Assembly: GCA_036504035.1 (NCBI GenBank)
Contig: DASXVV010000013.1
Coordinates: 77,302-141,301, forward strand
Length of the DNA stretch: 64,000 bases
Origin: Candidatus Deferrimicrobiaceae bacterium
GTDB taxonomy: Bacteria; Desulfobacterota; Deferrimicrobia; Deferrimicrobiales; Deferrimicrobiaceae
Direction: 5' to 3'
Part shown: piece after piece, positions 1,026 to 25,581 of the stretch
How the letters are laid out: each line of letters begins with the position of its first letter
Numbering within the stretch: the first letter of the stretch is position 1
Notes under the pieces: generated by a model
The model's input: only the letters and a program-made list of their open reading frames with translations
What the model was told of the DNA's origin: nothing
The model's database searches: none
Made by a program: the position numbers and the translations under genes

Positions 1026-3278
1026 ATGAGATTAAAGGTCTGTTTTCTCTGGCACATGCACCAACCGTCCTATAAGGATCCTGAGTCCGGGAACTATATC
1101 CTGCCCTGGGTCCGGCTTCACGCCATCAAGGATTACGTCGCGCTGCCGCGGATATTCAGCAGGTTCCCGAAGGTCCGGCACACGTTCAACCTGGTGCCGT
1201 CCCTGCTGCTCCAGATCCGTGACTATGTCGAAAACGGGGCAGTGGATACTTTTCTGACCGTTTCCCGAAAAGACGCGCTCGACCTGTCTGGCGACGAAGA
1301 AGCGTTTATCCTCCGCAATTTTTTCTCGGCGTTTCCTCCGACGATGATCTTTCCCCAGCCGCGATACGAAGAACTCTACACCCGCCGGGAAGACGCGCTA
1401 TCCGCAACCGGGAAGAACGGTGCGGTGGGCGGTTTCGGCGCATCCGATTTCATCGACCTCGTCACGCTGTTCAACCTGACCTGGTTCCACCCCCTTCATC
1501 GGGAAGAAGACGCAGAGCTGTCCCGCCTTTGGCAGAAAGGGAGAGATTACACCGAAAAGGAAAAGAACTACGTTCTCGATCGGCAACTGGATGTCATGGC
1601 GACGCTGATTCCCGAGTATCGAAAATACGCCGAAGAGTGCGGGGGAGAGCTGTCGACGACTCCAATGTACCATCCGATTCTCCCGCTGCTTATCGACAAT
1701 CGATCCGCGCGCGATGCGGTCCCCAATGCCCCGCTGCCAACCCAACCCTTTTCCTATCCGATCGATGCGAGAATTCAGCTCGAAAAGGGGAGGGCGTTCT
1801 TCAAGGATTCGTTCGGTCGCATTCCGGACGGTCTCTGGCCTTCCGAAGGCTCGATAAGCCCGGCGATGGTCGATCTCGCTGTAAAAACCGGTTTCAAATG
1901 GGCGGCGACCGATGAGATGCTGTTATCCCGTTCGCTCGGCAGGTCGATCGTCCGCGATGCGGATGGCGTCCCCTCGGAACCCGATTGGCTCTACCGGCCC
2001 TATCAAGCCGAAACGCCCTCAGGCAGCATGGCTTTTTTCTTCCGCGATCACCACCTTTCCGATCTGATCGGTTTTGAGTACTCCCGATGGAATGCCGTAG
2101 ATGCCGCAAACAATTTCATTCATAAATTGGAGATGATAAAGTCGAAATTGTCATCCGTTACATCAGATATTTCCGAATGCGTGGTCCCCGTCATCCTTGA
2201 TGGCGAAAACGCTTGGGAATATTATTACGACTCCGGTCGTTTATTTTTAGAAACATTAATGAGTAAACTCAATGACATGTCTGACCAATTCGAATGCACA
2301 ACATTCACTGAGGCGCTGACAAGCCATGGCGAGTTGAGAAAACTTCCATCGATTCCGACCGGTTCTTGGATAGACGGGACCTTTTATATCTGGATCGGGC
2401 ACGACGAAGACCGGGCAGCGTGGGACATGCTGTCGCGCGCCAGGACTGCATGGCAGGCCAAGTCCGACGGGGGGAATCCTCAGGACCAGGCGCCTGCGAT
2501 GGTCGAGGCGTTCGAGCATCTTCTGGTGGCCGAGGGATCGGATTGGTGCTGGTGGTATGGGGACGACCATTATACGCCGCACGGCCAGGAATTCGACGCC
2601 ATCTTCCGGCATCATATTAAGGCTATGTATTATCTAATTGGTATTAAACCACCGGAAAACATAGATATCCCCATCCTAAAGGAATCGAAAATTCCGTCCG
2701 TAAAGAATTTTTTGGCCAGCCCCAGATCTTACATCAGCCCGCGGATCACGGGCTTTGCGGGTTCATATTTCGACTGGAACGGCGCCACGCGTTATATTCC
2801 GATGCCCGAGTTCGGCGCTATGCATCGCGCGGGGTTTGGGTTGCTTTCCGTCCTTTTCTACGGTTTCAGCAGGTCAGACCTGTTTCTGCGGGTTGACTTG
2901 CATGCATCCATGGTCGAACGGGACGATCATTTTTCTGTAGAGTATGTTTTTCCGGGCAAAAACCGGAAAATCGTCATCGAGGTGGATCCCGGGTCGAAGT
3001 CCGTCGTCGGACGGGTCGAAATTCTCAAGAATCGCGATGAAAGCGATATTGCCCTGGAGTCCGAATTGAATGCGCGCGGTGACCTGAAATTCGGTTTCGG
3101 GAGGGTTCTCGAGGCCGGAATCCCTTTTGCGGCGCTCGATTGCGAAGGCGAAGACCGGATCGAGTTCTTTGTGTCGATCCATGCGCAAGGAAATATCGGC
3201 GAGCGGTGGCCGATGTACGGAACCTTCACGGCCGATCTGCCGGGAGCCGACTTCGAAGAGCGCATGTGGCAGATTTAA
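1026..3278 (+). CDS. Glycoside hydrolase family 57 protein (alpha-amylase/4-alpha-glucanotransferase type)
   Basis: 750 residues, cytoplasmic (no signal peptide). It shows the GH57 conserved regions in order: HMHQP at residues 10-14, YHPILPL near 214, GLWPSEGS near 268 (the catalytic nucleophile region), FFRDHHLSD near 336 (the acid/base Asp region) and ILDGENAWEYYYDSG near 390-403. The C-terminal 250 residues form the beta-rich domain seen in long GH57 enzymes. Substrates in the family are alpha-glucans such as glycogen or amylose. The base composition dips at about 2095-2300 and 2630-2710. It is the last gene before the dif-containing gap. Confidence 0.88.
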   Translation: MRLKVCFLWHMHQPSYKDPESGNYILPWVRLHAIKDYVALPRIFSRFPKVRHTFNLVPSLLLQIRDYVENGAVDTFLTVSRKDALDLSGDEEAFILRNFFSAFPPTMIFPQPRYEELYTRREDALSATGKNGAVGGFGASDFIDLVTLFNLTWFHPLHREEDAELSRLWQKGRDYTEKEKNYVLDRQLDVMATLIPEYRKYAEECGGELSTTPMYHPILPLLIDNRSARDAVPNAPLPTQPFSYPIDARIQLEKGRAFFKDSFGRIPDGLWPSEGSISPAMVDLAVKTGFKWAATDEMLLSRSLGRSIVRDADGVPSEPDWLYRPYQAETPSGSMAFFFRDHHLSDLIGFEYSRWNAVDAANNFIHKLEMIKSKLSSVTSDISECVVPVILDGENAWEYYYDSGRLFLETLMSKLNDMSDQFECTTFTEALTSHGELRKLPSIPTGSWIDGTFYIWIGHDEDRAAWDMLSRARTAWQAKSDGGNPQDQAPAMVEAFEHLLVAEGSDWCWWYGDDHYTPHGQEFDAIFRHHIKAMYYLIGIKPPENIDIPILKESKIPSVKNFLASPRSYISPRITGFAGSYFDWNGATRYIPMPEFGAMHRAGFGLLSVLFYGFSRSDLFLRVDLHASMVERDDHFSVEYVFPGKNRKIVIEVDPGSKSVVGRVEILKNRDESDIALESELNARGDLKFGFGRVLEAGIPFAALDCEGEDRIEFFVSIHAQGNIGERWPMYGTFTADLPGADFEERMWQI

Positions 3279-3374
3279 ACTGATTTTTCTCCCTGCACGA
3301 AATCCATCTAAAACCATAATCGTCGAAAGATTGATCCGGGCTGAAACGCCGCAGGGGGGTTGATGCGCGCTATA

Positions 3375-3469
3375 TTGTCCACAGCTTTTGGCCAGATGTG
3401 CATAAACAACGTCTGATAATGTATATTATGTCAAATCACAATTGGAGCGAAAGTTGGGGCTGTGGACAA
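3375..3469. repeat. 10-bp inverted repeat flanking the dif site, with DnaA-box-like cores
   Basis: TTGTCCACAG at 3375-3384 and its exact complement CTGTGGACAA at 3460-3469 face each other across the dif site. Each contains TTGTCCACA, one base from the DnaA box TTATNCACA. Between them, 3397-3405 reads TTATGCACA on the minus strand, an exact match to TTATNCACA. The pattern is visible directly. DnaA binding, or any role in recombination at dif, is inference. Confidence 0.5.
3409..3436 (+). other. dif: dif site: XerC/XerD chromosome-dimer resolution site
   Basis: A 28-bp site with the left arm ACGTCTGATAA (XerC side), the 6-bp centre TGTATA and the right arm TTATGTCAAAT (XerD side). The centre is identical to Escherichia coli dif and the right arm differs from it by one base. 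The left arm is divergent, as is usual for XerC arms, but shares most positions with the Bacillus subtilis arm. It is the key feature of the 334-bp gene-free gap 3279-3612. Gene blocks on either side converge near here, as expected at a terminus. XerCD would resolve chromosome dimers here with FtsK. Element integration at dif is a known alternative use. Confidence 0.85.
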
Positions 3470-3612
3470 CCCCCGCTCCCGTTCGATGATCGGCGCAGGA
3501 CCGACCCCGCCATAAAAAAATACACAATCGATTTTTATCGCTGAATTTTTCCCGTGCTTTGTGCCGATTAAATACTGGTGTCCGAGACGAATCCGAAACG
3601 GAGCCCCAACCA

Positions 3613-4215
3613 ATGAAGGGTCAGCCGAAGCGCCGATACCTGATCGATATCCGGACCCAGATCCCGTTCCTCCTGAAGATCGGGTCTGTCTGGGCCGGCG
3701 GCATTGTCCTGCTCTGCGGGTTGCTCTATTACCTGGCCGACGAGCAACTTGGACAAAGCTTTTACAGCATCCACCAGCGGCTCCGGAACACGTGGCAGAT
3801 CCTGCTTCCGGCCGTCCTTGTCAGCGGAGGGCTTTCCTTCCTGGTGACGATCGGGACGACGGTCTTCCTGGCGCTCCGGGAATCGCACCGGCTGGGGGGG
3901 CCGATCTTCAAGTTCAACAAACTGTTCAAGGAACTTGAATCCGGAATATTGCACACCGATTTCCGGTTCAGGAACGGAGACCTCCTCTTCGACATGGGGG
4001 AAAATTATCGGGCTGCGCTGCAAGCGAACCGGGAACGGATGCGTGCGTTGCGGCACGCAACCGTTGATGCCGAGCGCGCCGTCAAGGAGATGGAACTTTC
4101 GATTCTGGCTCACAATCTTCCCGCTGAAGAAGCCGAGCTGGTCCGGGATGTCGCACGGAAGGTGCTCCTCGCCCGCGAAGAGGCTCAACGGTTCGACCTA
4201 GGCGCCGAATCTTGA
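3613..4215 (+). CDS. Two-TM protein with HAMP-like linker and no output domain
   Basis: 200 residues from the ATG at 3613; a longer frame exists upstream, but this start follows GGAG at about the right distance. Two membrane segments lie near residues 22-42 and 63-87. They are followed by a HAMP-like stretch (SHRLGGPIFKFNK..., then ESGILHTDF and a NGDLLFDMGENYRAAL helix) and a C-terminal helical tail. It looks like the membrane half of a chemoreceptor or sensor without a methyl-accepting or kinase domain. Its stop overlaps the TTG start of the multihaem cytochrome (TTGA), so the two are translationally coupled and probably form one complex or pathway. Confidence 0.75.
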   Translation: MKGQPKRRYLIDIRTQIPFLLKIGSVWAGGIVLLCGLLYYLADEQLGQSFYSIHQRLRNTWQILLPAVLVSGGLSFLVTIGTTVFLALRESHRLGGPIFKFNKLFKELESGILHTDFRFRNGDLLFDMGENYRAALQANRERMRALRHATVDAERAVKEMELSILAHNLPAEEAELVRDVARKVLLAREEAQRFDLGAES

Positions 4216-5765
4216 GCAATCGGTTCAAAACCATCTCGATCGGCATCCTTATCCTGGTCTACGGATCGGTCTATGGAGGGCTGGCCCTATGGAGGCAGTA
4301 TGCCGCGTACAGCAACCCGCACGCCTTCATGAAAGACCCGGCCCGATGTTCCGGATGCCACCTCGAATCGAAGCCCGAGAAGGGCCGGCCGTACCAAGTG
4401 ATGAATTTCCGCCGAGACATCTATTCGCTTTGCGAACAATGCCACATGCTCAAAGTGACCCATCCGGTCGACGTGGCTCCGGGACGGATGACCGGGAACA
4501 AGCTGCCGCTCGACGCCGACGGCACGATGACCTGCGTGACATGCCACGCTCCCCACTCCGCCCCGTTTTCAAACCGGATGTTCACCGGGCGGACGACGTG
4601 GGAGAAAGTCCGCGACACGCTTTTTCCGATGCTTCCCGGCCGGTTCCGAACTCACTTCCTGCGGATGGCGACGCCCAGGGGAGAGCTGTGCGAACGCTGC
4701 CATGCGGGACGTTCGATCGCAACCCGGCGCGGAGAGATCAAGCCGACCGATCCCGCAACCTATGCCGGATCGAAAAGCTGCGAAAAGTGCCATCCTTCCG
4801 AATATGCGCAGTGGGGCAAAACGGCCCATGCCCGAATGCTGCGGAGCCCGCGCAAAGACCCGGGCGCACTCGTCGCGGTTTTCGGCGCCACTCCCCCCTT
4901 CCCTCCCTCGGAGATCGCCTACGTGTTGGGAAGTCGCAACGTCCAGCGCTTCATCAGCCGGCGGGGCGACTCCATGGTGGTGCGTACCCCGATCTGGCTG
5001 ATCCGGGCCAAAAAATGGAATCTGTCTTATTGGCGCGAACTGGACTGGATCAGGCTTTGTTCGGGCTGTCACACTACAGGGATGGACCCGACGCAGGCTG
5101 CGTTCGCGGAGGAAGGGATCGGGTGCGAAGCGTGCCACGGACCCGGCAGGAAGCACGCGGCATCGACCGCCAAAAGCGACATCGTGAATCCGCGGAGGCT
5201 GCCCCCGGACCGGCGGGACATGATCTGCGAGGCGTGCCACACCGCCGGTCACGACAGCACGGGCGAATTCCGCTTTCCCGCCGGATTCGTACCCGGGGCC
5301 GACCTCACCCGGCATTTTTTCGGCCTGACGCCGAAGCCGGGGCAGGACGACCTCTCCTTCAAGGGAGACGGGAGCTACGAGGACCGGCACCGGCAATTCC
5401 TGTTCTGGCAGACGCAGATGCTGATCGTCGAGGGAGAGACCTGCGACCTGTGCAAGAATTTCAGGGAGGCGCGAAAGGAAACGACCGGTACCGGGCCGCA
5501 AAAGATGACCCCGGAGGAATACTGCGTTTCGTGCCACGACGGGACCATCGTGACGCTGGCCAGGTACCACGACCATCCCGAGGTCGCGTCACGCCGCTGC
5601 CAGGTTTGTCATCCACCGGTCCGGAATGCGGCCGGGGAAGTCTCGATCCATGATCACCGGTTCCTCCCAGATTCGGCGCTCCAGAAAAATGACTTTATTC
5701 CGTCCCCCGATTTCCGTAGCATCTGTTTTAGGTGTCACCCCGTTCCCCAATCGAAAGGAGTCTGA
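4212..5765 (+). CDS. Dodecahaem c-type cytochrome, membrane-anchored, with one CXXCK haem site
   Basis: 517 residues from a TTG start that overlaps the stop of the preceding gene. An uncleaved-looking N-terminal membrane helix (about residues 8-26) is followed by a periplasmic domain with eleven CXXCH motifs and one CXXCK (CDLCK, residues 411-415, bases 5442-5456), giving 12 predicted covalent haems. A Lys-ligated haem of this type is the active-site haem in NrfA nitrite reductase, so a catalytic rather than purely electron-transfer role is possible. Many additional His residues could be distal ligands. The substrate cannot be read from the sequence. It is followed within 10 bp by two TlpA-like thioredoxins. 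Confidence 0.9.
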   Translation: MSNRFKTISIGILILVYGSVYGGLALWRQYAAYSNPHAFMKDPARCSGCHLESKPEKGRPYQVMNFRRDIYSLCEQCHMLKVTHPVDVAPGRMTGNKLPLDADGTMTCVTCHAPHSAPFSNRMFTGRTTWEKVRDTLFPMLPGRFRTHFLRMATPRGELCERCHAGRSIATRRGEIKPTDPATYAGSKSCEKCHPSEYAQWGKTAHARMLRSPRKDPGALVAVFGATPPFPPSEIAYVLGSRNVQRFISRRGDSMVVRTPIWLIRAKKWNLSYWRELDWIRLCSGCHTTGMDPTQAAFAEEGIGCEACHGPGRKHAASTAKSDIVNPRRLPPDRRDMICEACHTAGHDSTGEFRFPAGFVPGADLTRHFFGLTPKPGQDDLSFKGDGSYEDRHRQFLFWQTQMLIVEGETCDLCKNFREARKETTGTGPQKMTPEEYCVSCHDGTIVTLARYHDHPEVASRRCQVCHPPVRNAAGEVSIHDHRFLPDSALQKNDFIPSPDFRSICFRCHPVPQSKGV

Positions 5766-5773
5766 TCCTTCCC

Positions 5774-6301
5774 ATGAAAACTCGCCCTTCCGTTGCCCTT
5801 CTCGCGTTTGCGCTATTCCTGCTTGCCATCGTTCCCACCTCCTCCAGCGCCCTGTGCGTGAAGGTCGGAGAGGAGCTTCCGAACGTAACCCTTCCCACCC
5901 TCGAGGGGGAAAGCGTCTCCCTTCACAGCTTTCGCGGGAAGATCGTGATGCTCGCCTTCTGGGCCTCCTGGTGCCCCAGGTGCATGGACGAACTCACCTA
6001 TCTCCAGGGAATTTCCAAGACGAGCCCCGACATCGTCGTCGTCGGCATCAACCAGGAAAGCCAGAACATCTCCCGGGCGCACAAGGAGCGGATCAAGCGG
6101 TCCCTCAAGGAAGGCAAGATCGATTTCACCGTTCTGGTCGACGAGAACCTTGACGCGTGGCGAACCTTCTGCATCAACGCCCTTCCTACCAGCATCATTC
6201 TCGACAAGAAAGGCGTCGTCCGCTTTGCCGAGCCCAATTACTACTGGGCGACCCAGGACAAGATCGCCGAGATCATCCAGGCCATCCGGCTCGGAAAATA
6301 G
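5774..6301 (+). CDS. TlpA/ResA-like exported thioredoxin
   Basis: 175 residues from the ATG at 5774, with AAAGGAG about 13 bp upstream. An N-terminal signal segment (residues 1-26) precedes a thioredoxin fold with the active site WASWCPRC (Cys67 and Cys70) and a cis-Pro loop in the NALPTSIILD segment. TlpA/ResA proteins reduce apocytochrome cysteines or other periplasmic disulfides. The position directly after a 12-haem cytochrome argues for haem-motif thiol reduction or a redox-partner role. It is one of a tandem pair with the next gene, and the two are diverged. Confidence 0.85.
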   Translation: MKTRPSVALLAFALFLLAIVPTSSSALCVKVGEELPNVTLPTLEGESVSLHSFRGKIVMLAFWASWCPRCMDELTYLQGISKTSPDIVVVGINQESQNISRAHKERIKRSLKEGKIDFTVLVDENLDAWRTFCINALPTSIILDKKGVVRFAEPNYYWATQDKIAEIIQAIRLGK

Positions 6302-6304
6302 GCC

Positions 6305-6895
6305 ATGTTTCGTTTCGAGGTCAACCGTTGGGCGACCGCGATCCTGCTCGCGGTCTGCGTGGGGATCAGCACGGCGGCGGTGCTTCCGGCCCGGGCCGAA
6401 AAGGATGTGCCCTCCCCTCTCCGCTCGATCGTCACCATCGGAGAGGCTGCTCCCGGATTCACGCTCAAGGATGTCAACGGCCGGAACGTCACCTTCAGGC
6501 CGGGATCGGGCAAGCCGACCCTCCTGGTCTTCTGGTCCGTCTTCTGCCCGCTGTGCAAGGAATTGACGCCGGCCACCAGCGCCATCGCGACTCGAAGCCG
6601 GAAATCGCTCGATGTCATCGGGGTCAACCTCGACGGGAAGCGCTTCACGAATGCGGTCAAGTCGTTCCTCAAGGACAACGGGATGAAGTTCCCCGTGGGG
6701 CTTGACGATATCCGGAACGACCTGTTCATCGCCTCCGATCCGTATGGCGTCGAGAAGACGCCCACGGCCGTGTTGGTCGAGGGATCAGGAAAGGTCTACA
6801 GGGTTTACGTGGCGGACAAGATGAGGGATCTTATCAAGAACTTCGATGCGGAGACCGCCGGCCTAAAAACGAAAGGCGCGAAAGGAAAGAAATAA
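6305..6895 (+). CDS. Second TlpA-like exported thioredoxin
   Basis: 196 residues, starting 3 bp after the previous stop. It has a signal segment ending near AAVLPARA (residue 31) and a thioredoxin fold with active site FWSVFCPLC (Cys81 and Cys84). The VEKTPTAVLV segment supplies the cis-Pro, and there is a Lys-rich tail. The CXXC dipeptide (PL) differs from the neighbour (PR), which suggests a different redox potential or client. The last 33 bp overlap the convergent membrane-protease-like gene on the other strand. Confidence 0.83.
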   Translation: MFRFEVNRWATAILLAVCVGISTAAVLPARAEKDVPSPLRSIVTIGEAAPGFTLKDVNGRNVTFRPGSGKPTLLVFWSVFCPLCKELTPATSAIATRSRKSLDVIGVNLDGKRFTNAVKSFLKDNGMKFPVGLDDIRNDLFIASDPYGVEKTPTAVLVEGSGKVYRVYVADKMRDLIKNFDAETAGLKTKGAKGKK

Positions 6896-11479: not shown

Positions 11480-11863
11480 CTATCGGCGGTCCAGAATCGA
11501 CTTGATGGCGACAAGCTCTTTCTTGACCAGGCGAAGGGCCGACTTGTGCGGATTTTCCTTCAGGTCGAGGGCAAGCTGTCGTTGCTTCTCTTTCATGCGG
11601 TCTTTCAGCTGCAAGCGTGCGCCTTCGATCGTGAATCGTTCTACGTGAAGCATCTGGCGAATTTCAAGCAGGATTTCGACTTCGTGCCTTTTGTAGATGC
11701 GATGGCTGGAGCGGTTTTTTGCTGTCGCGAGGTTGAACTCGGTTTCCCAGAAGCGAACGACATAGGGCTTGACGCCGAGAAGTTCGCTGACTTCCCCGAT
11801 TTTGAAATAGAATTTATCGGGAATCGCGGGGGATGTCACGTCGAGTGTCGTCGATCGGTTCAA
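11480..11863 (-). CDS. MerR-family transcriptional regulator
   Basis: 127 residues from a TTG at 11863 that overlaps the stop of ihfA (TTGA); a GTG a few codons inside is a possible alternative. The winged HTH (YFKIGEVSELLGVKPYVVRFWETEF...HRIYKRHEVEILLEIRQML) spans residues 18-75. A coiled-coil tail follows, and there is no C-terminal effector domain or metal-binding Cys. This short MerR next to ihfA-pheT is a recurring arrangement in Geobacter-like genomes. The target is unknown. Confidence 0.88.
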   Translation of the reverse strand: MNRSTTLDVTSPAIPDKFYFKIGEVSELLGVKPYVVRFWETEFNLATAKNRSSHRIYKRHEVEILLEIRQMLHVERFTIEGARLQLKDRMKEKQRQLALDLKENPHKSALRLVKKELVAIKSILDRR

Positions 11864-12147
11864 CTCTTGGGCGGTTCGTTGATGAACGCCTTGAGGATCT
11901 GGCTCGGACGGAAAGTCAGGACCCTGCGGGCGGTGATTTCGATGTCATCGCCGGTTTGCGGGTTGCGCCCCTTCCGCGGGCGCTTGTCGCGCAAGACGAA
12001 GTTTCCGAAACCGGAGATTTTGATCTTGTCCCCCGACTTGAGGGTGTGCTTAAGCGTGTCGAAGATATCCTCGACGATTTCCTGTGCCTCTTTCTTGGAA
12101 AGGCCTACCTTCTCGTAAACGATGTCAACCAGGTCTGCTTTCGTCAT
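11860..12147 (-). CDS. ihfA: Integration host factor subunit alpha
   Basis: 95 residues, the usual length. It is a DNA-bending protein that acts as a heterodimer with IhfB. The HU/IHF fold shows TKADLVDIVYEKVGLSKKEAQEIVEDIFDTL, then GFGNFVLRDKRPRKGRNPQTGDDIEI, where the RNPQTG turn carries the intercalating Pro. The position directly after pheT is the classical one. IHF would also assist sigma-54 promoters such as the one at 53820. Confidence 0.95.
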   Translation of the reverse strand: MTKADLVDIVYEKVGLSKKEAQEIVEDIFDTLKHTLKSGDKIKISGFGNFVLRDKRPRKGRNPQTGDDIEITARRVLTFRPSQILKAFINEPPKS

Positions 12148-12175
12148 CAGGCCCTCCCCGGGATTCGCATTCCTG

Positions 12176-14587
12176 TCACGAGGTGCGAATCTTTCCGCCG
12201 AAGCGATTGTCCAATAAATTTAATATCTTGGTATGTATACTATTAACCTCTGATTCGGTCAAGGTCCTGTCGGACGGTTGCAGTTTGACCCGGAAGGCGA
12301 TGCTTTTCTTTCCCTCCCCGATCTTGTCGCTCGTAAAGACATCGAAAACCGATGCGGATGCGATCTCGGGCGAAAGCTCGCGCACCATGGCCAGGATGTC
12401 CCCCACCGCCGCCACCGAGGGGACGATGCAGGCGTAGTCCCTGAACACGGGGGGAAATTTCGGGATTTCCCGGTGGAGGGCCGGATGCGGCTCGTTAGAA
12501 AGCGCAACGGGGAGACGCAATTCAGCGTAGCAGACCGGTCGTTCTATATTGAATTCGGATAGAAGGTCGTGGGAAATTACGCCAACCCAGCCGACGATCT
12601 CCCCCTTCATGATGATGTCGGCCGCCTGTCCCTCTACGTAGAATGGCCGGGAGCCGGTCGGAACGAAGTGGACCGGGCCTGCCCCCAAAACGTTCAGAAC
12701 GCCTTCGGATATCCCCTTGACGTCGAAAAAATCGACCCCCTCGTGGGCCCCCGACCAGGCGCCGGGAAGACGGTGGCCATACAGGGCGAAGGCGATCCGG
12801 GGTTCTTCGAAATGGAAGCGCTCGTACGATTTTCCGAATGCCTTGCCCGTTTCGAACAAGCGGATCTCGTCGATAAAGCGGCGGACATTCGACGAGACGT
12901 TGTGGAGCAGGCCTGCCAGGAGATCCGGGCGCATCACTGTCATGTCGTCCGAGAGCGGATTGGCAAGCCGCATCGCATCGGCGGCATCGAAGCCGATCCG
13001 GGCTCCCAGGCGCAACAGCTCTTTTTCGGAGACGAAGGAATAGTTGATGACCTGCGAGAAGCCCTGGGTCCGAAGGTATTCGCTCCCTCGCTCGACCGCG
13101 GCGGTGAAGCGGTCGTCCGCCGAGAATTCGGGCCCTGTCTCTGACCCGGGAAAGGTCGTCGGGATCGTGTCGTATCCGGTCAGCCGGGCGATTTCCTCGA
13201 TCAGGTCGATCTCGCGCTCGATATCGAAGCGATTGGAAGAGACGCCGACCTGCCATGCCCCCGCCTCGGGTACGGAAACAGGGAACCCGAGCCGATCGAA
13301 AATCGAACGGCAGCTGTCGGCGCCATAGACGCGCCCGATGATGCGGTCGGCCTGTTCGGGTCGAAACGGGACCGTCCGCGTGAAGTCGCGGTCGCCTCCG
13401 ATGTCGATGATCCCCGGGGCGACGGTCGCTTGTGTGATCTGCGACAGGAGCGAGGTCGCGCGTTGGACGGCATAGAGGGTTCCGGCGGGGTCGACACCGC
13501 GCTCGAACCGATAGGAGGATTCGCTGGAGATCCCCATGCGGCGGGCGGCGAACCGGATCGCCGAAGGTGCGAAGTGGGCGCTCTCGAAAAGCACGCGTTT
13601 GGTCTCTGCGAGCACCTCGGTGTTCTGACCGCCCATGACGCCGGCGACTGCGACGGGGCGCTCTCCGTCCCAGATGAGCAGCATCTCGGGCAATGCCTTT
13701 CGCTTGACGTTGTCGAGCGTGACGAACTCCCGCTCGATCCCGGAGCGCCGGACGTCGATACGGCCTCCCGCGAGACGATCGAGGTCGAAGGCATGCATCG
13801 GTTGCCCGACCTCGAGCAACAGGTAGTTGGTGATGTCGACGACGTTGTTGATCGGACGAATGCCGCAAAGCGACAGTCGTCTCTGCATCCAGGCCGGCGA
13901 TGGCCCGATCGTCAGGCCGGTCATGACCCGGGCGGAATAGCGGGGGCAGAGATCGGGGTCGGTCACGGCAACCGAAGCCAGAGTCTTGGCCTCGGGTCCC
14001 ATTTCATGAATCGGGGTGTCGGGGAGGACCACCTTTTCGCCGGTCAGGGCGGCAACCTCGCGAGCGACGCCGAGAACGCTCAGGCAATCGCCCCGGTTGG
14101 GGGTGATCTCGACCTCGAGCAGGTGGTCGGAAAGTCCGAGCGCCACGGCCAGGGGGGTGCCGGGAACCGAGTCGGCCGGCAGGATCATGATCCCCGCGGA
14201 TTCCTCGGCAAGTCTCAACTCTGTCTCTGAGCAGAGCATCCCCTCGGATATCTCGCCGCGGATCTTGGCCTTTTTGATCTCGATCCCGTTGGGCAGCTTT
14301 GCGCCGATTTTCGAGAGGGCGACGTGATCGCCGGCAGCCATGTTCTTCGCACCACAGACGATCGGGTATTCGCGCTCCCCGTCGGTTACCCGGCAAAGGG
14401 AAAGCTTGTCCGCGTTGGGGTGAGGTTTTTTCTCGAGGATCTTCGCGACGACGACGTGATCGAGTCCGTCACCGAGAAACCGACAGGAGGAGACCTCGAT
14501 GCCACCCATGGTCAGTGCCTCTTGCAACTGAAAGGGCGACAAGCGGGTGTCGATGAACTCTCGAAGCCAGGAATACAGGATCTTCAA
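12176..14587 (-). CDS. pheT: Phenylalanyl-tRNA synthetase beta subunit
   Basis: 803 residues from a TTG at 14587 behind GGGGGAG; the frame upstream is antisense-like overlap with pheS. It begins KILYSWLREFIDTRLSPFQLQEALTMGGIEV, as PheT proteins do. In order it has the tRNA-binding EMAP-like domain (residues 40-150), the B3/B4 editing region (VDITNYLLLEVGQPMHAFDLD near 250), the B5 domain, the catalytic-like core and the C-terminal anticodon-binding FDX domain. It forms an alpha2-beta2 enzyme with PheS, encoded 31 bp upstream. Confidence 0.97.
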   Translation of the reverse strand: MKILYSWLREFIDTRLSPFQLQEALTMGGIEVSSCRFLGDGLDHVVVAKILEKKPHPNADKLSLCRVTDGEREYPIVCGAKNMAAGDHVALSKIGAKLPNGIEIKKAKIRGEISEGMLCSETELRLAEESAGIMILPADSVPGTPLAVALGLSDHLLEVEITPNRGDCLSVLGVAREVAALTGEKVVLPDTPIHEMGPEAKTLASVAVTDPDLCPRYSARVMTGLTIGPSPAWMQRRLSLCGIRPINNVVDITNYLLLEVGQPMHAFDLDRLAGGRIDVRRSGIEREFVTLDNVKRKALPEMLLIWDGERPVAVAGVMGGQNTEVLAETKRVLFESAHFAPSAIRFAARRMGISSESSYRFERGVDPAGTLYAVQRATSLLSQITQATVAPGIIDIGGDRDFTRTVPFRPEQADRIIGRVYGADSCRSIFDRLGFPVSVPEAGAWQVGVSSNRFDIEREIDLIEEIARLTGYDTIPTTFPGSETGPEFSADDRFTAAVERGSEYLRTQGFSQVINYSFVSEKELLRLGARIGFDAADAMRLANPLSDDMTVMRPDLLAGLLHNVSSNVRRFIDEIRLFETGKAFGKSYERFHFEEPRIAFALYGHRLPGAWSGAHEGVDFFDVKGISEGVLNVLGAGPVHFVPTGSRPFYVEGQAADIIMKGEIVGWVGVISHDLLSEFNIERPVCYAELRLPVALSNEPHPALHREIPKFPPVFRDYACIVPSVAAVGDILAMVRELSPEIASASVFDVFTSDKIGEGKKSIAFRVKLQPSDRTLTESEVNSIHTKILNLLDNRFGGKIRTS

Positions 14588-14618
14588 AGCGAGACTCCCC
14601 CAGGAATGGCAAAGATGG

Positions 14619-15653
14619 CTAAAAGCGGGAAAGGAAACGGAGATCGTTTTCGAAAAAGAGGCGAATGTCTCCGATGCCGTGGCGAAGCATCGCGATCCGT
14701 TCGACGCCCATGCCGAACGCGAACCCGGAGTAGATTTCGGGGTCGTAGTCGACGAATCCGAAAACTGCGGGGTCGACCATGCCGGCCCCGAGGATCTCGA
14801 GCCAGCCGCTCTCCTTGCAAACCCTGCAACCTTTTCCACCGCAGATGACGCACTCGATGTCGACTTCGGCGGAGGGTTCCGTGAAGGGAAAGAAGCTGGG
14901 GCGGAAGCGCAACGGCTTGCGTTCGCCGAACATCATGGCACAAAACTCGGTCAGGATTCCCTTGAGGTCGGAAAAGGTGATGCCCTTGTCGACCGCAAGC
15001 CCTTCGACCTGGTGGAACATCGGGCTGTGGGTGATGTCGGAGTCGCAACGATAGACCGAACCGGGAGCCACGATGCGGACGGGCGGCCTGGAGGCCTCCA
15101 TGGTGCGGATCTGGATCGGGGAGGTGTGGGTGCGAAGCAGCAGGTCTGGCGTAGGGCCCGCCATGAAGAAGGTGTCCTGCATCTCACGGGCCGGGTGGTC
15201 GGCCGGAAAGTTGAGCGCCTCGAAATTGTAGTAGTCTTTTTCGATCTCGGGACCGAGGTGGGTGGAGAAACCGAGCCGGTTGAAAGCGGAAACGATGTCG
15301 GCCATGGTCCGGGAGATCGGGTGGCGATGCCCCATGGGCGGCACGCGTCCCGGAAGGGTTACGTCGATCTGCCCGGCCGCGTCGCGCAACTTGCGCTCAC
15401 GCTCACGGAATTCGTTCAGGCGGGTGTCGAATGCGGCCTCGAGTGCCTGCCGTGCGGCATTGGCGGCGGCGCCGACCTGCTTGCGCTCTTCAATGGGGAG
15501 GCCCGCAAGCCCCTTCATGATCTCGGAGAGGGTCCCCTTCTTTCCGAAGAAGATGCCCTTGACCGAGAGGAGGTCGCTTTCCGACTTCGCGTCGGAAAGC
15601 GCCTTCAACCCCTCTTCGGTGATGTCGGAAATATGGTGATCGGCAGAATGCAA
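14619..15653 (-). CDS. pheS: Phenylalanyl-tRNA synthetase alpha subunit
   Basis: 344 residues. A coiled-coil N-terminal arm (residues 1-85) is followed by the class II core with motif 1 (RPPVRIVAPGSVYRCD region), motif 2 and motif 3 (GFAFGMGVERIAMLRHGI near 315-330). HPISRTMADIV, LHTSPIQIRTM-like and ELLGAGMV-like (LEILGAGMVDPAVF) segments are diagnostic of PheS. It charges tRNA-Phe with PheT. It lies 12 bp downstream of rplT. Confidence 0.97.
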   Translation of the reverse strand: MHSADHHISDITEEGLKALSDAKSESDLLSVKGIFFGKKGTLSEIMKGLAGLPIEERKQVGAAANAARQALEAAFDTRLNEFRERERKLRDAAGQIDVTLPGRVPPMGHRHPISRTMADIVSAFNRLGFSTHLGPEIEKDYYNFEALNFPADHPAREMQDTFFMAGPTPDLLLRTHTSPIQIRTMEASRPPVRIVAPGSVYRCDSDITHSPMFHQVEGLAVDKGITFSDLKGILTEFCAMMFGERKPLRFRPSFFPFTEPSAEVDIECVICGGKGCRVCKESGWLEILGAGMVDPAVFGFVDYDPEIYSGFAFGMGVERIAMLRHGIGDIRLFFENDLRFLSRF

Positions 15654-15665
15654 GGATATGCCCGC

Positions 15666-16025
15666 TTATTTCGCGAGGGCCGCCTTCGACTGGTCGGCCA
15701 GCGCCTTGAATGCTCCGCTTTCGTTGAGCGCGAGATCGGCCAGCATCTTGCGATCGACCTCGATGCCGGCGATCTTGAGACCGTGCATGAACTGGCTGTA
15801 GGACAGCCCGTTTTCGCGGGTCGCGGCATTGATGCGGGTGATCCAGAGCGAACGGAATTCGCGTTTGCGGACACGGCGGTCGCGATAGGCATACTTCAGC
15901 GCCCGGTCGACGGCTTCCTTGGCGGAACGGAGCAGGCGTCCCCCGCCTCCACGGAAACCCTTGACGAGCTTGAATACTGTACGGCGTTTCTTCTTGGCGT
16001 GTACGGCTCTTTTTACGCGGGGCAT
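15666..16025 (-). CDS. rplT: 50S ribosomal protein L20
   Basis: 119 residues. [27 protein letters not shown] opens the basic N-terminal extension and a helical core follows, as in all L20. It binds 23S rRNA early in assembly and is a known translational repressor of its own operon in several bacteria. The 136-bp spacer upstream, after rpmI, holds three consecutive hairpins. Confidence 0.97.
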
Positions 16026-16056
16026 CTTGTTTCCCTCTTCTTTCGCGTGTTGCCCC

Positions 16057-16151
16057 GCCGGTCACGATGACCGGCGAAGGAAATTGAGGAGTGCCGGGAA
16101 GGGGCCTGTCCCCTTCCGATGTCGACAACCTGAAGCCCGCTCAGGGCGGGC
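16057..16151 (-). promoter_or_regulatory. Three tandem hairpins in the rpmI-rplT spacer
   Basis: Perfect stems at 16135-16151 (6 bp, loop TCAGG on plus), 16097-16117 (8 bp, GGAAGGGG/CCCCTTCC) and 16057-16075 (8 bp, GCCGGTCA/TGACCGGC, 3-nt loop) stand between rpmI and rplT. None has a U-tract, so they are more likely mRNA-structure, processing or L20-control elements than terminators. The stems are visible; the role is inferred. Confidence 0.5.
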
Positions 16152-16161
16152 AAACGAGGAT

Positions 16162-16359
16162 TTAAAGGTACGGAAGCAGGCTGCGGATCGACTTCTCGTT
16201 GGTCGAGTGCACGAGCCCGCTCTTGCGGAGCGAGCGCTTACGCTTGCGATTCTTCGAGGTGAGAATGTGGCGTCGCCCCATCTTGCCTCGCTTGATCCCG
16301 CCTGCGCCAGTGGCCTTGAAGCGCTTCTTCGCGCCACTGTTGGACTTCATCTTGGGCAT
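16162..16359 (-). CDS. rpmI: 50S ribosomal protein L35
   Basis: 65 residues from the ATG at 16359, which follows AGGAGG; a TTG three codons earlier is less likely. The sequence starts PKMKSNSGAKKRFKATGAGGIKRGK, typical of L35, and is strongly basic. It begins 5 bp after the infC stop, in the standard infC-rpmI-rplT order. Confidence 0.96.
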   Translation of the reverse strand: MPKMKSNSGAKKRFKATGAGGIKRGKMGRRHILTSKNRKRKRSLRKSGLVHSTNEKSIRSLLPYL

Positions 16360-16364
16360 GGTCG

Positions 16365-16997
16365 TCAAACCTCCTGATTATCGGACGCGGCCGGATCCGG
16401 CCCGTTGTCGTCTTTCGGCCCGTCAGCCGGCTTGGCTTTGGCTGACGCTGCGGGTTTCGCCGGAACAGCGACCGGTTTCTTCTTGGGTTGCGTGGGGGCG
16501 AGGACGGTCATCATGGTCTTGCCCTCCATCTTGGGGGGGCTTTCGACCTTGCAGATTTCGCTGACGGACTCGAGAACGTGCTTCAGGACCTCGAATCCGC
16601 TCTGCGATGCATAGGCCAGCTCGCGCCCGCGAAACCGGACGGTCACCTTGACCTTGTCGCCTTCACTGAGGAATCGGCGGATGTGCTTGACCTTGGTATC
16701 GAGGTCGTGATCATCCGTCTTGGGACGAACTTTGATCTCCTTGACCAGGATGACGGTCTGCTTCTTGCGCGCTTCTTGTTCGCGTTTGCTCTGGATGTAC
16801 TTGAACTTCCCGTAATCCATGATGCGGCAGACCGGCGGTGCGGCCATCGGGGCCACCTCGACCAGGTCAAGATCCGCTACACGCGCCCTTTGAAGCGCCT
16901 CGGAAGTGGAGATGACTCCCAACTGCTCGCCTTCGGCACCGACAAGGCGTACCTCGGGACAGTTGATCTGTTCGTTGATTCTGGATTCCTTCGCGAT
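16365..16997 (-). CDS. infC: Translation initiation factor IF-3 with non-canonical AUC start
   Basis: 210 residues if initiated at the ATC codon (16997-16995), 5 nt after AAAGGAGG. From there the frame reads AKESRINEQINCPEVRLVGAEGEQLG, the conserved IF-3 start; no ATG, GTG or TTG gives this N-terminus (the first TTG is 25 codons in). The core includes VDYGKFKY-like (RIMDYGKFKYIQSKR), the linker and C-terminal KVTVRFRGREL, plus an Ala/Pro/Lys-rich tail. IF-3 rejects rare start codons, so such a start lets IF-3 limit its own synthesis. Confidence 0.9.
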   Translation of the reverse strand: MAKESRINEQINCPEVRLVGAEGEQLGVISTSEALQRARVADLDLVEVAPMAAPPVCRIMDYGKFKYIQSKREQEARKKQTVILVKEIKVRPKTDDHDLDTKVKHIRRFLSEGDKVKVTVRFRGRELAYASQSGFEVLKHVLESVSEICKVESPPKMEGKTMMTVLAPTQPKKKPVAVPAKPAASAKAKPADGPKDDNGPDPAASDNQEV

Positions 16998-17008
16998 GAC
17001 CCCCTCCT

Positions 17009-18862
17009 TTAACTTGCGCGGTTGTTGCGTTCGTTCCGTGCGATCTCGATGAAGGCGTCGAGCGTCATGGACGTCAACTGCTCCCCACCGCGGCGGCGCG
17101 GCGTGACCTGCCGGTCGGTGACTTCACGGTCGCCGATGACCAGGGCATAGGGAACCTTTTTCAACTGCGACTCCCGTATCTTATACCCGAGTTTTTCGTT
17201 TCGGGCATCAACTTCCGTTCGGAACCCTTCGGACTTCAGGCGGTCGCGCAACTCGTAGGCGTAATCCGCGGCCTTGTCGGTGACGGGAAGGATGTCGATC
17301 TGGACCGGGGCAAGCCAAAGCGGGAAGGCGCCGGCATAGTGTTCGACCAGCACGCCGAAGAAGCGTTCGAGGGACCCCATCAGTGCGCGGTGGATCATGA
17401 TGGCGCGGTGGCGGGAGCCGTCTTCTCCGACGAAAGTGCAGTCGAACCGCTCGGGCAGGTTGAAGTCGACCTGGATCGTGGAGCACTGCCAGGACCGGCC
17501 CAGCATGTCCTTGATCTTGATGTCGATCTTGGGGCCGTAGAAGACCCCCTCGCCCGGGTCGACTTGATATGGGATTCCCTTGCGATCAAGGGCGCTCTTG
17601 AGGGCGTTCTCGGCTGCAGCCCAGTTTTCGTCGGAGCCGACGGATTTCTCGGGGCGGGTCGACAGGTAGATGTCGTATTGCGAGAAACCGAAGCTGCCGA
17701 GGATGAACAGCGTGAAGTCGAGAAGCTTGTAGATCTCCTCGTCGAGCTGGTCGGGGCGCATGAAGATATGTGCGTCGTCTTGTGTGAAGCCGCGGACGCG
17801 GAGAAGACCGTGGAGCGTCCCCGAGGGCTCGTAACGGTAGACGGTGCCGAGTTCGGCGTAGCGAATCGGCAGATCGCGATAGGATCGCATGGAGGAATTG
17901 AAGATTTCGATGTGGAACGGGCAGTTCATGGGCTTGAGCTGGTAGGCCTGTCCTTCGACCTCGATGCCCGCGTACATGGCGGCCCGATAGAAATCGAGGT
18001 GCCCGCTCGTGCGCCAGAGGTCTTGGCGGGCGATGTGGGGAGAAAAGACCAGGTCGTAGCCGGAGGCCTCGTGCTGCGCGCGCCAGAAATCTTCGATGAC
18101 CTTGCGGACCATGGCGCCCTTGGGGTGCCAAAGGATGAGCCCGGGGCCGACCTCGTCGTTGATGCTGAACAGATCGAGATCCTTGCCGATCTTGCGGTGG
18201 TCCCGCTTCTTGATCTCTTCGAGGAGACGGAGATGCTCGTCGAGATCCTTCTTGCCCGCGAAGGCGACGCCGTAGATGCGCGTAAGCATCTTGTTGGACG
18301 AGTCGCCGCGCCAGTAAGCGCCGGCGGTGGTCATGAGCTTGTAGGCGCCGATCTTTCCGCTGGAGGGAACGTGCGGTCCGCGGCAAAGGTCGAGGAATTC
18401 GCCGACCTTATAAATGGAGACCGTGGCATCGGGGATGTCGGCGATCAGCTCGAGTTTGTACGGCTCGCCCGGGAAGAGAGATCGGGCGGCATCTTTGCCG
18501 ACGACGTCGCGGAGGAAGGGAAGATCGGCCTTGACCAGCTCGGCCATCTTTTCCTCGATGCGGGAAAGGTCTTCGGTTGTAAAGGGAGTCTCGACATCGA
18601 AATCGTAGTAGAAGCCGTTTTCAATGGCGGGGCCGATGGTGATGCGCGCTTCAGGGAAGAGCATCTTGACCGCCGCAGCCATGACGTGGGCGGTGCTGTG
18701 GCGGATGATCTCGATGCCTTCGGGAGAGGACGACGTGAGCCATTCGACGGCGGACGGGTCTTCGGGAGCCGGAGTCGAAAGGTCGACGGGGCTGCCGTTC
18801 ACCTTGGCGGCGATGGCGACCTTGGCCTTGCCTTGCTGTTTCGCCAACTCGAATAACGTCAT
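17009..18862 (-). CDS. thrS: Threonyl-tRNA synthetase
   Basis: 617 residues, slightly shorter than the common 635-645 because the N-terminal TGS/N1 region is compact. The editing domain shows HSTAHVMAAAVKMLFPEARITIGP with its HxxxH, and the class II core follows with MNCPFHIEIF, RYAELGTVYRYEPSGTLHGLLRVRGFTQDDAHIF and the motif 3 HRALMGSLERF. The anticodon-binding domain is at the end (APVQIDILPVTDKAADYA). It precedes infC by 11 bp and follows tRNA-Val after a short leader. Confidence 0.97.
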   Translation of the reverse strand: MTLFELAKQQGKAKVAIAAKVNGSPVDLSTPAPEDPSAVEWLTSSSPEGIEIIRHSTAHVMAAAVKMLFPEARITIGPAIENGFYYDFDVETPFTTEDLSRIEEKMAELVKADLPFLRDVVGKDAARSLFPGEPYKLELIADIPDATVSIYKVGEFLDLCRGPHVPSSGKIGAYKLMTTAGAYWRGDSSNKMLTRIYGVAFAGKKDLDEHLRLLEEIKKRDHRKIGKDLDLFSINDEVGPGLILWHPKGAMVRKVIEDFWRAQHEASGYDLVFSPHIARQDLWRTSGHLDFYRAAMYAGIEVEGQAYQLKPMNCPFHIEIFNSSMRSYRDLPIRYAELGTVYRYEPSGTLHGLLRVRGFTQDDAHIFMRPDQLDEEIYKLLDFTLFILGSFGFSQYDIYLSTRPEKSVGSDENWAAAENALKSALDRKGIPYQVDPGEGVFYGPKIDIKIKDMLGRSWQCSTIQVDFNLPERFDCTFVGEDGSRHRAIMIHRALMGSLERFFGVLVEHYAGAFPLWLAPVQIDILPVTDKAADYAYELRDRLKSEGFRTEVDARNEKLGYKIRESQLKKVPYALVIGDREVTDRQVTPRRRGGEQLTSMTLDAFIEIARNERNNRAS

Positions 18863-20998: not shown

Positions 20999-22091
20999 GG
21001 ATTGCGGACAACTCCTTCTCGATGGCTTCAAGCAGCAGGTCGATACCGCCTCCGGTGACCGCAGAAACGGCATGCGCATCGGGCCAGTCGGAGTTTCCGG
21101 GGAAAACGGCCCCGAGGTCGCACTTGTTCAGGACGAGGAGCGACGGCTTGTCGTTATAGGCGAGCTCATTGAGGATGTTGACGACGGACTGGACGTTGGC
21201 TTCCGCCGCGTCGGAGCTTCCGTCGACCACGTGCAGCAACAGGTCGGCCTCGCCGATCCCCTCGAGGGTGGCGAGGAAGGCCTGTCGAAGTTCTTCCGGC
21301 AACTCGTGGATGAACCCAACCGTGTCGACCAGGATGGCGTTCTTCCCCGAGGGAAGTCGGAGCTTTCGCGCGGTCGGGTCGAGGGTGGCGAACAGCTGGT
21401 CGGCCACCAGGACGTCGGCCCCGGTCAGGCGGTTGAACAGCGTCGACTTCCCGGCGTTGGTGTATCCGACGATCGCGACGATCGGGAAGCCCACCTCTTT
21501 ACGGCGTTCCTGGTGGAGCGTGCGGGTTCGGCGAACGGTCAAGAGCTCGGTCTGGATCTGCTTCATGACGGTCCGGATCTTCCGGCGATCTTCCTCGAGC
21601 TTTTTCTCGCCCGGGCCGCGCGTGCCGATGCCGCCCCCGAGGCGCGAAAGATCCTTCCGCGCCCCGATCAGCCTTCCGGCCCGGAAGGAAAGTTGTGCGA
21701 ACTCGACCTGGAGCTTGCCTTCGCGCGTGCGTGCCCTCTGGGCGAAAATGTCGAGGATGACCTCGCGCCGGTCGAGAACCTTGACGCCGAGCTCTTTCTC
21801 GAGATTGAGCTGCTGCTTGGGGCGAAGCAGGTTCTGGAACACGACGACATCGACCCCGTGTTCCTCGACCGTGGCCTTCAGGCGTTCGAGCACGCCCGAC
21901 CCGATGACGGTCGACGGATGCTCGACCTGGAGCATGTTGGTCTGCCCGCCCGCGACGTTTCCGCCGGCCGCCTCGACCAGCGCCTTGAGCTCCTTGAGCA
22001 GGTCAGGACGCAGGCGATGGGCGTTTTTCTGGCGACGCGGGGCCCAGACCAGCCAGGCTTTCTCGGACTTGCTGCGCGGAATCTCCTGCAT
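20988..22091 (-). CDS. hflX: GTPase HflX
   Basis: 367 residues from the ATG at 22091, which shares its A with the dnaE stop codon (TGATG). It is a ribosome-associated GTPase that splits stalled ribosomes. The N-terminal HflX domain ends with LSRLGGGIGTRGPGEKKLEEDRR, and the G domain has GYTNAGKSTLFN (G1), DPTARK (G2), DTVGFI (G3) and NKCDL (G4). The longer frame upstream is only antisense-like overlap with dnaE. Confidence 0.93.
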   Translation of the reverse strand: MQEIPRSKSEKAWLVWAPRRQKNAHRLRPDLLKELKALVEAAGGNVAGGQTNMLQVEHPSTVIGSGVLERLKATVEEHGVDVVVFQNLLRPKQQLNLEKELGVKVLDRREVILDIFAQRARTREGKLQVEFAQLSFRAGRLIGARKDLSRLGGGIGTRGPGEKKLEEDRRKIRTVMKQIQTELLTVRRTRTLHQERRKEVGFPIVAIVGYTNAGKSTLFNRLTGADVLVADQLFATLDPTARKLRLPSGKNAILVDTVGFIHELPEELRQAFLATLEGIGEADLLLHVVDGSSDAAEANVQSVVNILNELAYNDKPSLLVLNKCDLGAVFPGNSDWPDAHAVSAVTGGGIDLLLEAIEKELSAIHAE

Positions 22092-25000
22092 CAGTGCAGC
22101 CGGAGGACGTCGTAGTTGAACAGTCCCCTCAGTTCCTTGGCGAGCTCGAGCGATGGGTTGACGCTGCAGCTGTCCGGGAGCTGCACGACGGCTTCGAATT
22201 CGCCGTTGCGGACCAGGTGGAGGTACCCCCTCTTTTCGCCGGCATGGCGGCGAAGGGTCTTGCGAAATGCCTGGACAAGCTCGGGTTGATAGGACTCGAG
22301 GTCGATCCGGTAGTGGACCGAACGTGCGAGGCGCTCCCGGATGTTTTCCATCCTGAAGATCTCGCGGGCGATGAGCTTGGTGGAGTTCTCCCCTTTTTCG
22401 ACGCGGCCGATCAGGAAGATCGGTTCCTCGGAGGAGCACGCATCGATGCACTCCTTGTAGGTCTCGGCCCAGACGAGCACCTCGATGATGCCTTCGCGGT
22501 CCTCGATCGTCAGGATGGCGTACTTGTCGCCCTTCTTGGTGAGCTTCTCCTTGACCGAATTGATGACACCGCCGACCTTCACCTCGGCGCCGCTCCGAAG
22601 CTCGCCGATCTGAGCGGTCGACGTATTGGCGAAAAGCTCGATCTCGCCGGCGAAGGCGTCGAGGGGATGTCCCGTGATGTAGAAGCCGAGCGCTTCCTTT
22701 TCGTGGGCGAGACGCTCCTTTCGGGTCCAGAGCGGTTCGGGGGCCGGAGCGTCCTTCTCCTTTCCCGAGGAGGCCTTGTCGGAATCGGCAGGCGTGGAAA
22801 CGCCGAACAGCGCGAACTGGCCGGATTCCTTGCGTTTCGCCTCGCGCTGGGCGGCGTCGATCATCGACGGGATCATGTCGACCAGGCGGCCGCGATCGGG
22901 ATCGATCGAGTCGAAGGCCCCGGCCTTGGCGAGGCTCTCGAGAACGCTCTTGTTGACGCGGCGCAGGTCGACGCGGGCCATGAAATCGGACACCGTGGCG
23001 AAGGGCGACTCCTGCCGGGCCTCGGCGATGGCCTCGATGGCCGAGGAGCCCACGCCCTTGATTGCGGAGAGGCCGAAGCGGATGCCGTTTCCGGAAGGAT
23101 GGAACGCAGCGCGCGACTCGTTGACGTCGGGCGGAAGGATCGGAATGTCGTGTTCGCGGGCGTCGTTGAAATAGCGGATGATCTTGGTGGTGTCGCCCGA
23201 TTCCGAGGTCATCAGCGCGCAATAGAATTCGACCGGGTAGTGCGCCTTCAGATACGCGGTCTGGTACGCCACGAAACCGTAAGCCGCGCTGTGTGACTTG
23301 TTGAAGCCGTATTCGGCGAACTGGGCCATGAGGTCGAACAGCGCCTCGGCTTTCTTCGGCTCGAATTTCTTCGCGGCGGCGCCTTGAAGGAACATCTCCT
23401 TCTGTTTCGCCATCACGTCGACTTTTTTCTTTCCCATCGCTTTCCGGAGCACGTCGGCTTGTCCCATCGTGAAGCCGCCGATGGCCACGGCGATCTGCAT
23501 GACCTGTTCCTGGTACACGATGACGCCATAGGTGTCCTTCAGGATCGGCTCGAGCTCGGGGAACATGTAAGAAGGCTTCTTGCGACCGTGACGGACCTCG
23601 ATGTAGTCGGTGACCATCCCGCTGTTGAGCGGACCCGGGCGATAAAGGGCGACCATGTCGACCATGTGGGTGAAGCGTTCCGGCTTCAGGCTCCCGAGGA
23701 GCTCGGTGAACCCGCTGCTCTCGCACTGGAAAACGCCGGGGGTGTCCTTCCGCTGGAGCATCTCGTAGGTCGGTGCGTCGTCGATCGGGATGTGGTTGAT
23801 GTCGATGTCGACGCCGCGCATCTCCTTGACCAGCTTGAGCGTATCGGCGATGGCCGTCAGCGTCCGCAGCCCCAGGAAGTCGAACTTGACCAGCCCGACC
23901 TTCTCGACGTCGGTCCCGGAAAGCTGGGTCGTGATTTCTTCCTTGGTGTTGCGGTAGAGCGCCGAGTATTCGGTGATGGGCTTGTCGGCGATGACGACGC
24001 CAGCCGCGTGGGTCCCGGCGTTGCGGGAAAGCCCCTCGATATCGCCGGCCAGGGCGAAAAGGTCGCGGATCTTGGGATCGGCCGCGATCATCTCGTTGAG
24101 CTTGGGCTCGACCTCGCGCGCTTTTTTGATCGTCATCTTGAGGTCGGCCGGGATCAGCTTGGCGATAATGTCGGCCTGCGCATAGGGAATTTCAAGGACA
24201 CGGGCGACGTCGCGGATGGCCGCGCGCGCCTTCATCGTCCCGAAGGTGATGATCTGGGAGACGTGGTCGGCGCCGTACTTCTCCTTGACGTATTCGATGA
24301 CGCGCTCCCGCTTGTCCTTGCAGAAGTCGCAGTCGATATCGGGGAGGCTCACCCGCTCGGGATTGAGGAACCGCTCGAAAAGGAGGTTGTAGGGGAGCGG
24401 GTCGATCTCGGTGATCCGCAGGCAGTAGGCGACCAGGCTGCCCGCCGCGCTACCGCGGCCGGGGCCGGTGGGCACCCCGTTGTCCCGGGCGTATTTCAGG
24501 AAATCGGCGACGATCAGGAAGTAGCCGGGGAAATCCATCCCTTCGATGACCGAGAGTTCGTATTCGAATCGTTCATGGTATCGGGCAAGTTCGCCTTCGG
24601 CGAGCGGAGGGCCATACGTTTCCCTTTCCTTGAGCCGCTGTTCGAGTCCCTTCGCGGCCTGCGCGCGCAATTCTTCTTTCGCGGTCCGGCCGGGGGGGAG
24701 CGGGAAATCGGGGATCTGGGGCTTCCCCAGCGTCAAGGTCACGTTGCACCGCTCCGCGATCCGGACGGTGTTGGCGAGCGCATCGGGGGCGATCTCGCCG
24801 AATGTTTTGGCGAATTCCTCGCCGCTCTTCACGTAGAAGTCGGTGGACTCGAATTTCATCCGCTTCGTGTCGCTGATCGTCTTGCCGGTCTGGAGGCAGA
24901 GCAGGATCTCGTGAAGCTTGTGGTCCTCGCGATGCAGGTAATGGGCGTCGTTGGTCGCGATGAGCGGCGTGTCGGTCTTGCGCGCCAGCGCGATCAGCTT

Positions 25001-25576: not shown

Positions 25577-25581
25577 GTTCC

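Follow-up and report, generated by a model that had tools for sequence, protein, structure and literature searches.

Chromosomal dif is the single site at which the division machinery separates joined chromosomes once replication ends, and on the usual view it works without accessory DNA, while the replication initiator DnaA does its work at the origin and in clusters remote from dif. The plasmid Xer sites cer and psi do have an accessory sequence, which is one-sided and involves PepA together with ArgR or ArcA. As for the chromosomal systems, dif and XerCD-FtsK were predicted across 16 phyla in a study that makes no mention of DnaA or of elements flanking dif (PMC3025954). In E. coli, the DnaA-box clusters DARS1, DARS2 and datA are at 17.5, 64 and 94.6 min, respectively, and dif is at about 36 min (PMC4585315); in the open-access literature on DnaA boxes and dif or Xer, no report of boxes flanking dif was found.

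The locus described here belongs to Candidatus Deferrimicrobiaceae bacterium (GCA_036504035.1), whose genome consists of 3,171,897 bases (3.17 Mb) in 14 unordered contigs; the window, that is, the whole stretch of 64,000 nucleotides that was analysed, lies on the 296-kb contig C13. The analysis drew on searches across the genome and, at the level of longer sequence, on parts of C13 and of the region around dnaA. Like the chromosomal dif of E. coli and others, the site is a genome-unique 28-bp sequence with two arms and the centre TGTATA, accompanied by XerC/XerD, an FtsK gamma domain and a switch in gene orientation; it differs from the standard dif in having conserved, symmetric flanks that resemble DnaA boxes. 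It shares with cer and psi an Xer core with conserved, here predicted, protein sites at a fixed distance, but in this case the sites are on both sides and have a DnaA-type motif. As in datA, DARS1, DARS2 and the B. subtilis clusters, several boxes, some of them opposing, occur in a short non-coding stretch; the E. coli clusters are located away from dif, whereas here dif is in the middle of the cluster. An equally strict scan for boxes in the DARS regions of E. coli was of no use for a comparison of the geometry. Finally, the fork traps based on Tus-ter or RTP also have oppositely oriented protein sites (here predicted) that bracket the terminus, but their motif is another one, and the outer sites here are 86 bp apart, not kilobases. 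The dif site itself had already been claimed in the original prediction, and the DnaA-box-like flanks are the new part.

The dif site and the replication terminus

The features of the locus, with their positions in the window, are the following:

1026-3278, + strand: glycoside hydrolase family 57 (GH57) protein (PF03065, E 3.8e-52), upstream of dif
3375-3385, + strand: left DnaA-box-like element, TTGTCCACA (+GC), centre −43.5 bp from the dif centre
3397-3405, − strand: middle putative DnaA box, TTATGCACA, an exact TTWTNCACA match, −21.5 bp from the dif centre
3409-3436, + strand: dif site, ACGTCTGATAATGTATATTATGTCAAAT, genome-unique, single-copy and conserved in relatives
3409-3419, 3420-3425 and 3426-3436, + strand: predicted XerC arm, central TGTATA and predicted XerD arm of dif
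3459-3469, − strand: right DnaA-box-like element, TTGTCCACA (GC+), centre +42.5 bp, inverted with respect to the left box
3613-4215, + strand: small putative membrane protein with no Pfam match, downstream of dif
4212-5765, + strand: multiheme cytochrome c, downstream of dif

Regarding the site itself, the original prediction had described a dif-like 28-bp sequence with the E. coli centre and a right arm one base off the XerD arm of E. coli, and both points were borne out: compared with E. coli dif, the centre agrees in 6/6 positions and the right arm, TTATGTCAAAT, in 10/11; the left arm is poorly conserved (5/11). A search with the dif consensus, allowing ≤3 mismatches, gave one match in the window, with 0/100 shuffled controls having any, and this same site was the one match in the whole genome (control, 0). 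Among 59 relatives, 19 had a match, never more than one per genome, and a dif pattern fitted to the family found exactly one site in 16/24 family genomes. The 28-bp length, the two 11-bp arms, the 6-bp centre and the one copy per chromosome are those of chromosomal dif sites, and the sequence at 3409-3436 is almost certainly one of them, about as certain as sequence allows.

As for the proteins that would act on it, tyrosine recombinases had seven matches in the genome; one passes the curated NCBIfam equivalog cut-off for XerD, and the second has XerC as its best-scoring equivalog with a score below the curated cut-off (299.8 vs 335 bits), so that the suggested look for xerC and xerD yields XerD and a XerC-like recombinase. 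The FtsK that was also expected is encoded, with its gamma domain (PF09397, E 1.7e-26). KOPS-like octamers, GGGNAGGG, are aimed at dif in a ratio of 24:8 on its left side and of 32:9 on its right side (Fisher p 1.2e-5); this bias and the gene direction are not independent, because most octamers sit in genes that point to dif, and within the genes pointing away the ratio is 6:2 towards dif. We infer that XerCD recombines at this site: the left arm would be bound by XerC and the right arm by XerD, FtsK would translocate at the septum along the KOPS-like sequences towards dif and activate XerD, and XerCD would then resolve chromosome dimers after replication finishes there.

The gap from 3279 to 3612 holds no gene backed by Pfam or by relatives, as had been predicted. 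The claim that gene blocks converge on it holds at the scale of the contig, where genes are nearly all on the + strand for about 70-80 kb left of dif and mostly on the − strand over ~170 kb right of it, and not for the immediate neighbours, 1026-3278 and 3613-6895, which are both on the + strand. Since the short operon at 3613-6895 is on the + strand too, gene direction reverses exactly at 6863-6895, which is 3.4 kb to the right of dif; the part of this operon at 4212-6895 encodes the multiheme cytochrome c and two thioredoxin-like (AhpC-TSA) proteins. Further on (11860-18862, 22091-25591) come an IHF-like gene, pheT and thrS, all no more than ~16 kb from dif, and dnaE, no more than 22 kb away; essential translation and replication genes adjoin the terminus.

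A turning point of the cumulative GC skew had been expected here. The curve has no maximum at dif; it is locally near a minimum, with no classical turning point, and the skew is negative to the left of dif and positive to the right. On the coding strand, third positions have a skew of about −0.11 to −0.15 whether the genes point left or right, and the cumulative skew therefore tracks gene orientation and not replication. With the coding strand C-rich at third positions in either direction, GC skew was set aside as a terminus test, and it gives no support for a terminus, nor does it count against one. The C-rich coding strand (window 1-64000, contig C13) inverts the cumulative skew around the terminus, and automated calling of origin and terminus from GC skew could err in this genome. 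The claim that the terminus lies in the window stands on other grounds: gene orientation and KOPS-like octamers both switch at dif, and this supports its location in the replication terminus region, so that dif ties the terminus to a single contig of this genome.

DnaA-box-like elements around dif

The site is enclosed by an 11-bp perfect inverted repeat, with TTGTCCACAGC at 3375-3385, its inverse at 3459-3469 and dif between them. The genome has three copies of this 11-mer (~0.7 expected), two around dif and one just upstream of dnaA; within the window, the 9-mer TTGTCCACA is limited to the two copies flanking dif. The resulting module spans ~95 bp and consists of the left box, the middle box, dif and the inverted right box. 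The outer boxes differ from the strict TTWTNCACA consensus by one base; in orientation, the left box and the middle box are opposed. Regarding the geometry, which can be read directly from the letters, the centres of the outer boxes are ~43 bp on each side of the dif centre, close to four helical turns, and the three centres (−43.5, −21.5 and +42.5) are roughly multiples of two helical turns. Shuffled sequences show that chance puts a symmetric 6-mer pair about dif in 5-7% of single loci, and a lone locus would therefore be weak evidence; what counts is the recurrence of the word at the same distance in three species, together with the exact 11-mer.

Boxes of the types TTGTCCACA/TTATCCACA form the customary cluster in the dnaN-dnaA interval and upstream of dnaA, and for this reason the elements flanking dif are naturally read as DnaA boxes. 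In all three species of the genus, the oriC has the same box types as those around dif: the match between oriC and the dif flank is TTGTCCACA in species G000 and CTGTCCACA, the right box, in G001 and G002. The first base of the right box agrees in each species with that of one oriC box (TTG in G000, CTG in the others), a single change. The DnaA of the genome has an intact DNA-binding domain with the GGRDHTTV signature; the motif, the oriC match and this domain make DnaA the likely protein of the boxes.

Three boxes near TTWTNCACA within 95 bp form one of just two such clusters on the contig. The second, TTCTCCACACCACCTGTGGACAGGTTGTGGATTCCTTTGTGGACAA, at C13:230793-230838, is ~150 kb right of dif and outside the window, in an apparently non-coding stretch ahead of a promoter-like sequence.

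Conservation in the genus and distribution outside it

The genus is represented in the collection by three sequenced species (G000, G001 and G002). In 3/3 of them the distance to GTCTGATAA is exactly 26 bp from the end of TCCACAG and 14 bp from the start of TGTGNAYA, and on the other side TGTGGACA begins at 24-25 bp from dif; within the module the spacings are 26/26/26, 14/14/14 and 24/25/25, and the distances from the module to the flanking genes, 99/105/93 and 127/121/129, vary by 8-12 bp. The middle box of the two sister species is TGTGAACA(A/G), at −14 from GTC as here, their outer boxes are centred at −43.5 and +43.5, and their left box is weaker. The spacer bases between the boxes are poorly conserved across the genus, and since the spacing stayed fixed while the spacers diverged, the boxes are very likely functional.

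As for the neighbours, the same GH57 gene is upstream of dif in relatives from several genera (L005, L007, L009, L011, L012 and L014; synteny by tblastn), and the cytochrome follows dif also in the two sister species (tblastn). The membrane protein at 3613-4215 has a sister-species counterpart that is merely 42% identical. The conservation of the cytochrome gene together with the module in the genus agrees with a control of the downstream membrane protein and multiheme cytochrome operon by the boxes, the symmetry about dif being then coincidental; DnaA is a known transcription regulator, and the gap between the GH57 gene and the operon also contains a conserved operon leader. This reading is improbable: the distance between the right box and the operon start varies (127/121/129) whereas the distances to dif do not, and no strong promoter match was found between the boxes.

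The same comparison bears on the nature of the inverted repeat. An RNA or DNA hairpin behind the GH57 gene, acting as a terminator or forming a cruciform, would agree with the folding of the RNA from 3370 to 3475, which is better than that of shuffles (z −3.47), but the repeat has no T tract and no terminator match, and each arm by itself resembles a DnaA box. Moreover, the arms of the sister species changed independently and pair over just 6-7 bases, so pairing is not the conserved feature and a hairpin is very improbable. Equally, a perfect 11-bp inverted repeat flanking dif could be taken for the terminal repeats of a small dif-bearing mobile element; such an origin is hardly credible, as the genome has no further copies of the pair, the flanks have no target-site duplication, and each of the three species has the pair once, in the same location. 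Indeed, the inverted pair TCCACAG-N60..90-TGTGGACA is found in one place per genome in the three species, always around dif.

Outside the genus, 13 dif loci of the family's other genera were scanned, and 0/13 have a box at a distance of 150 bp or less. When 26 genomes of the class were scanned, the module was found in this genus only, with G001 missed because the dif centre of this species reads GGATAT. When dif between inverted TCCACA/TGTGGA was sought in ~85,000 species genomes, four matches came up, one of which was a sister species. The other three were rejected, since they are not dif but TATATTATGT in other contexts; in the matches from a Bacilli MAG and from Exiguobacterium, TATATTATGT resembles a start codon. 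Across these ~85,000 genomes, no dif with an inverted box pair was found outside the genus, and a function of the module cannot be general, given that it is carried by three species only.

Possible roles of the boxes

The most likely reading is that DnaA would occupy the left, middle and right boxes around dif. Bound there, it might mark or shape the dif nucleoprotein complex, tying this complex to the replication initiator; alternatively, the boxes might titrate or recycle DnaA at the locus that is replicated last. Any effect on recombination or on DnaA activity is, like the binding, an inference.

The main rival, with regulation of the cytochrome operon being weaker, is a DnaA titration or reactivation cluster of the datA, DARS or B. 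subtilis type that would include dif by accident and leave XerCD unaffected. DnaA-box clusters outside oriC are well known (PMC13220808, PMC4585315), and the cores of DARS have opposing boxes (PMC8682772), as the left and middle boxes are here; in addition, the contig has a second cluster of DnaA boxes ~150 kb away. This explanation is possible but somewhat unlikely, because in 3/3 species the dif centre is equally far from both outer boxes, and the spacing stays constant over dif itself; a simple cluster would need neither.

The symmetry of the boxes about dif favours a role in the dif complex or in a signal linked to the terminus. We tentatively propose, on the strength of this geometry, that in this genus DnaA bound symmetrically on both sides of dif could be an accessory of XerCD/FtsK or could sense the completed replication of the terminus, directly coupling the control of initiation with dimer resolution.

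In conclusion, in this genus the boxes possibly link the replication initiator to the processing of the terminus, and a dif site midway between mirrored boxes of the origin type would offer a concrete, testable case of a physical connection between the initiation of replication and its completion.
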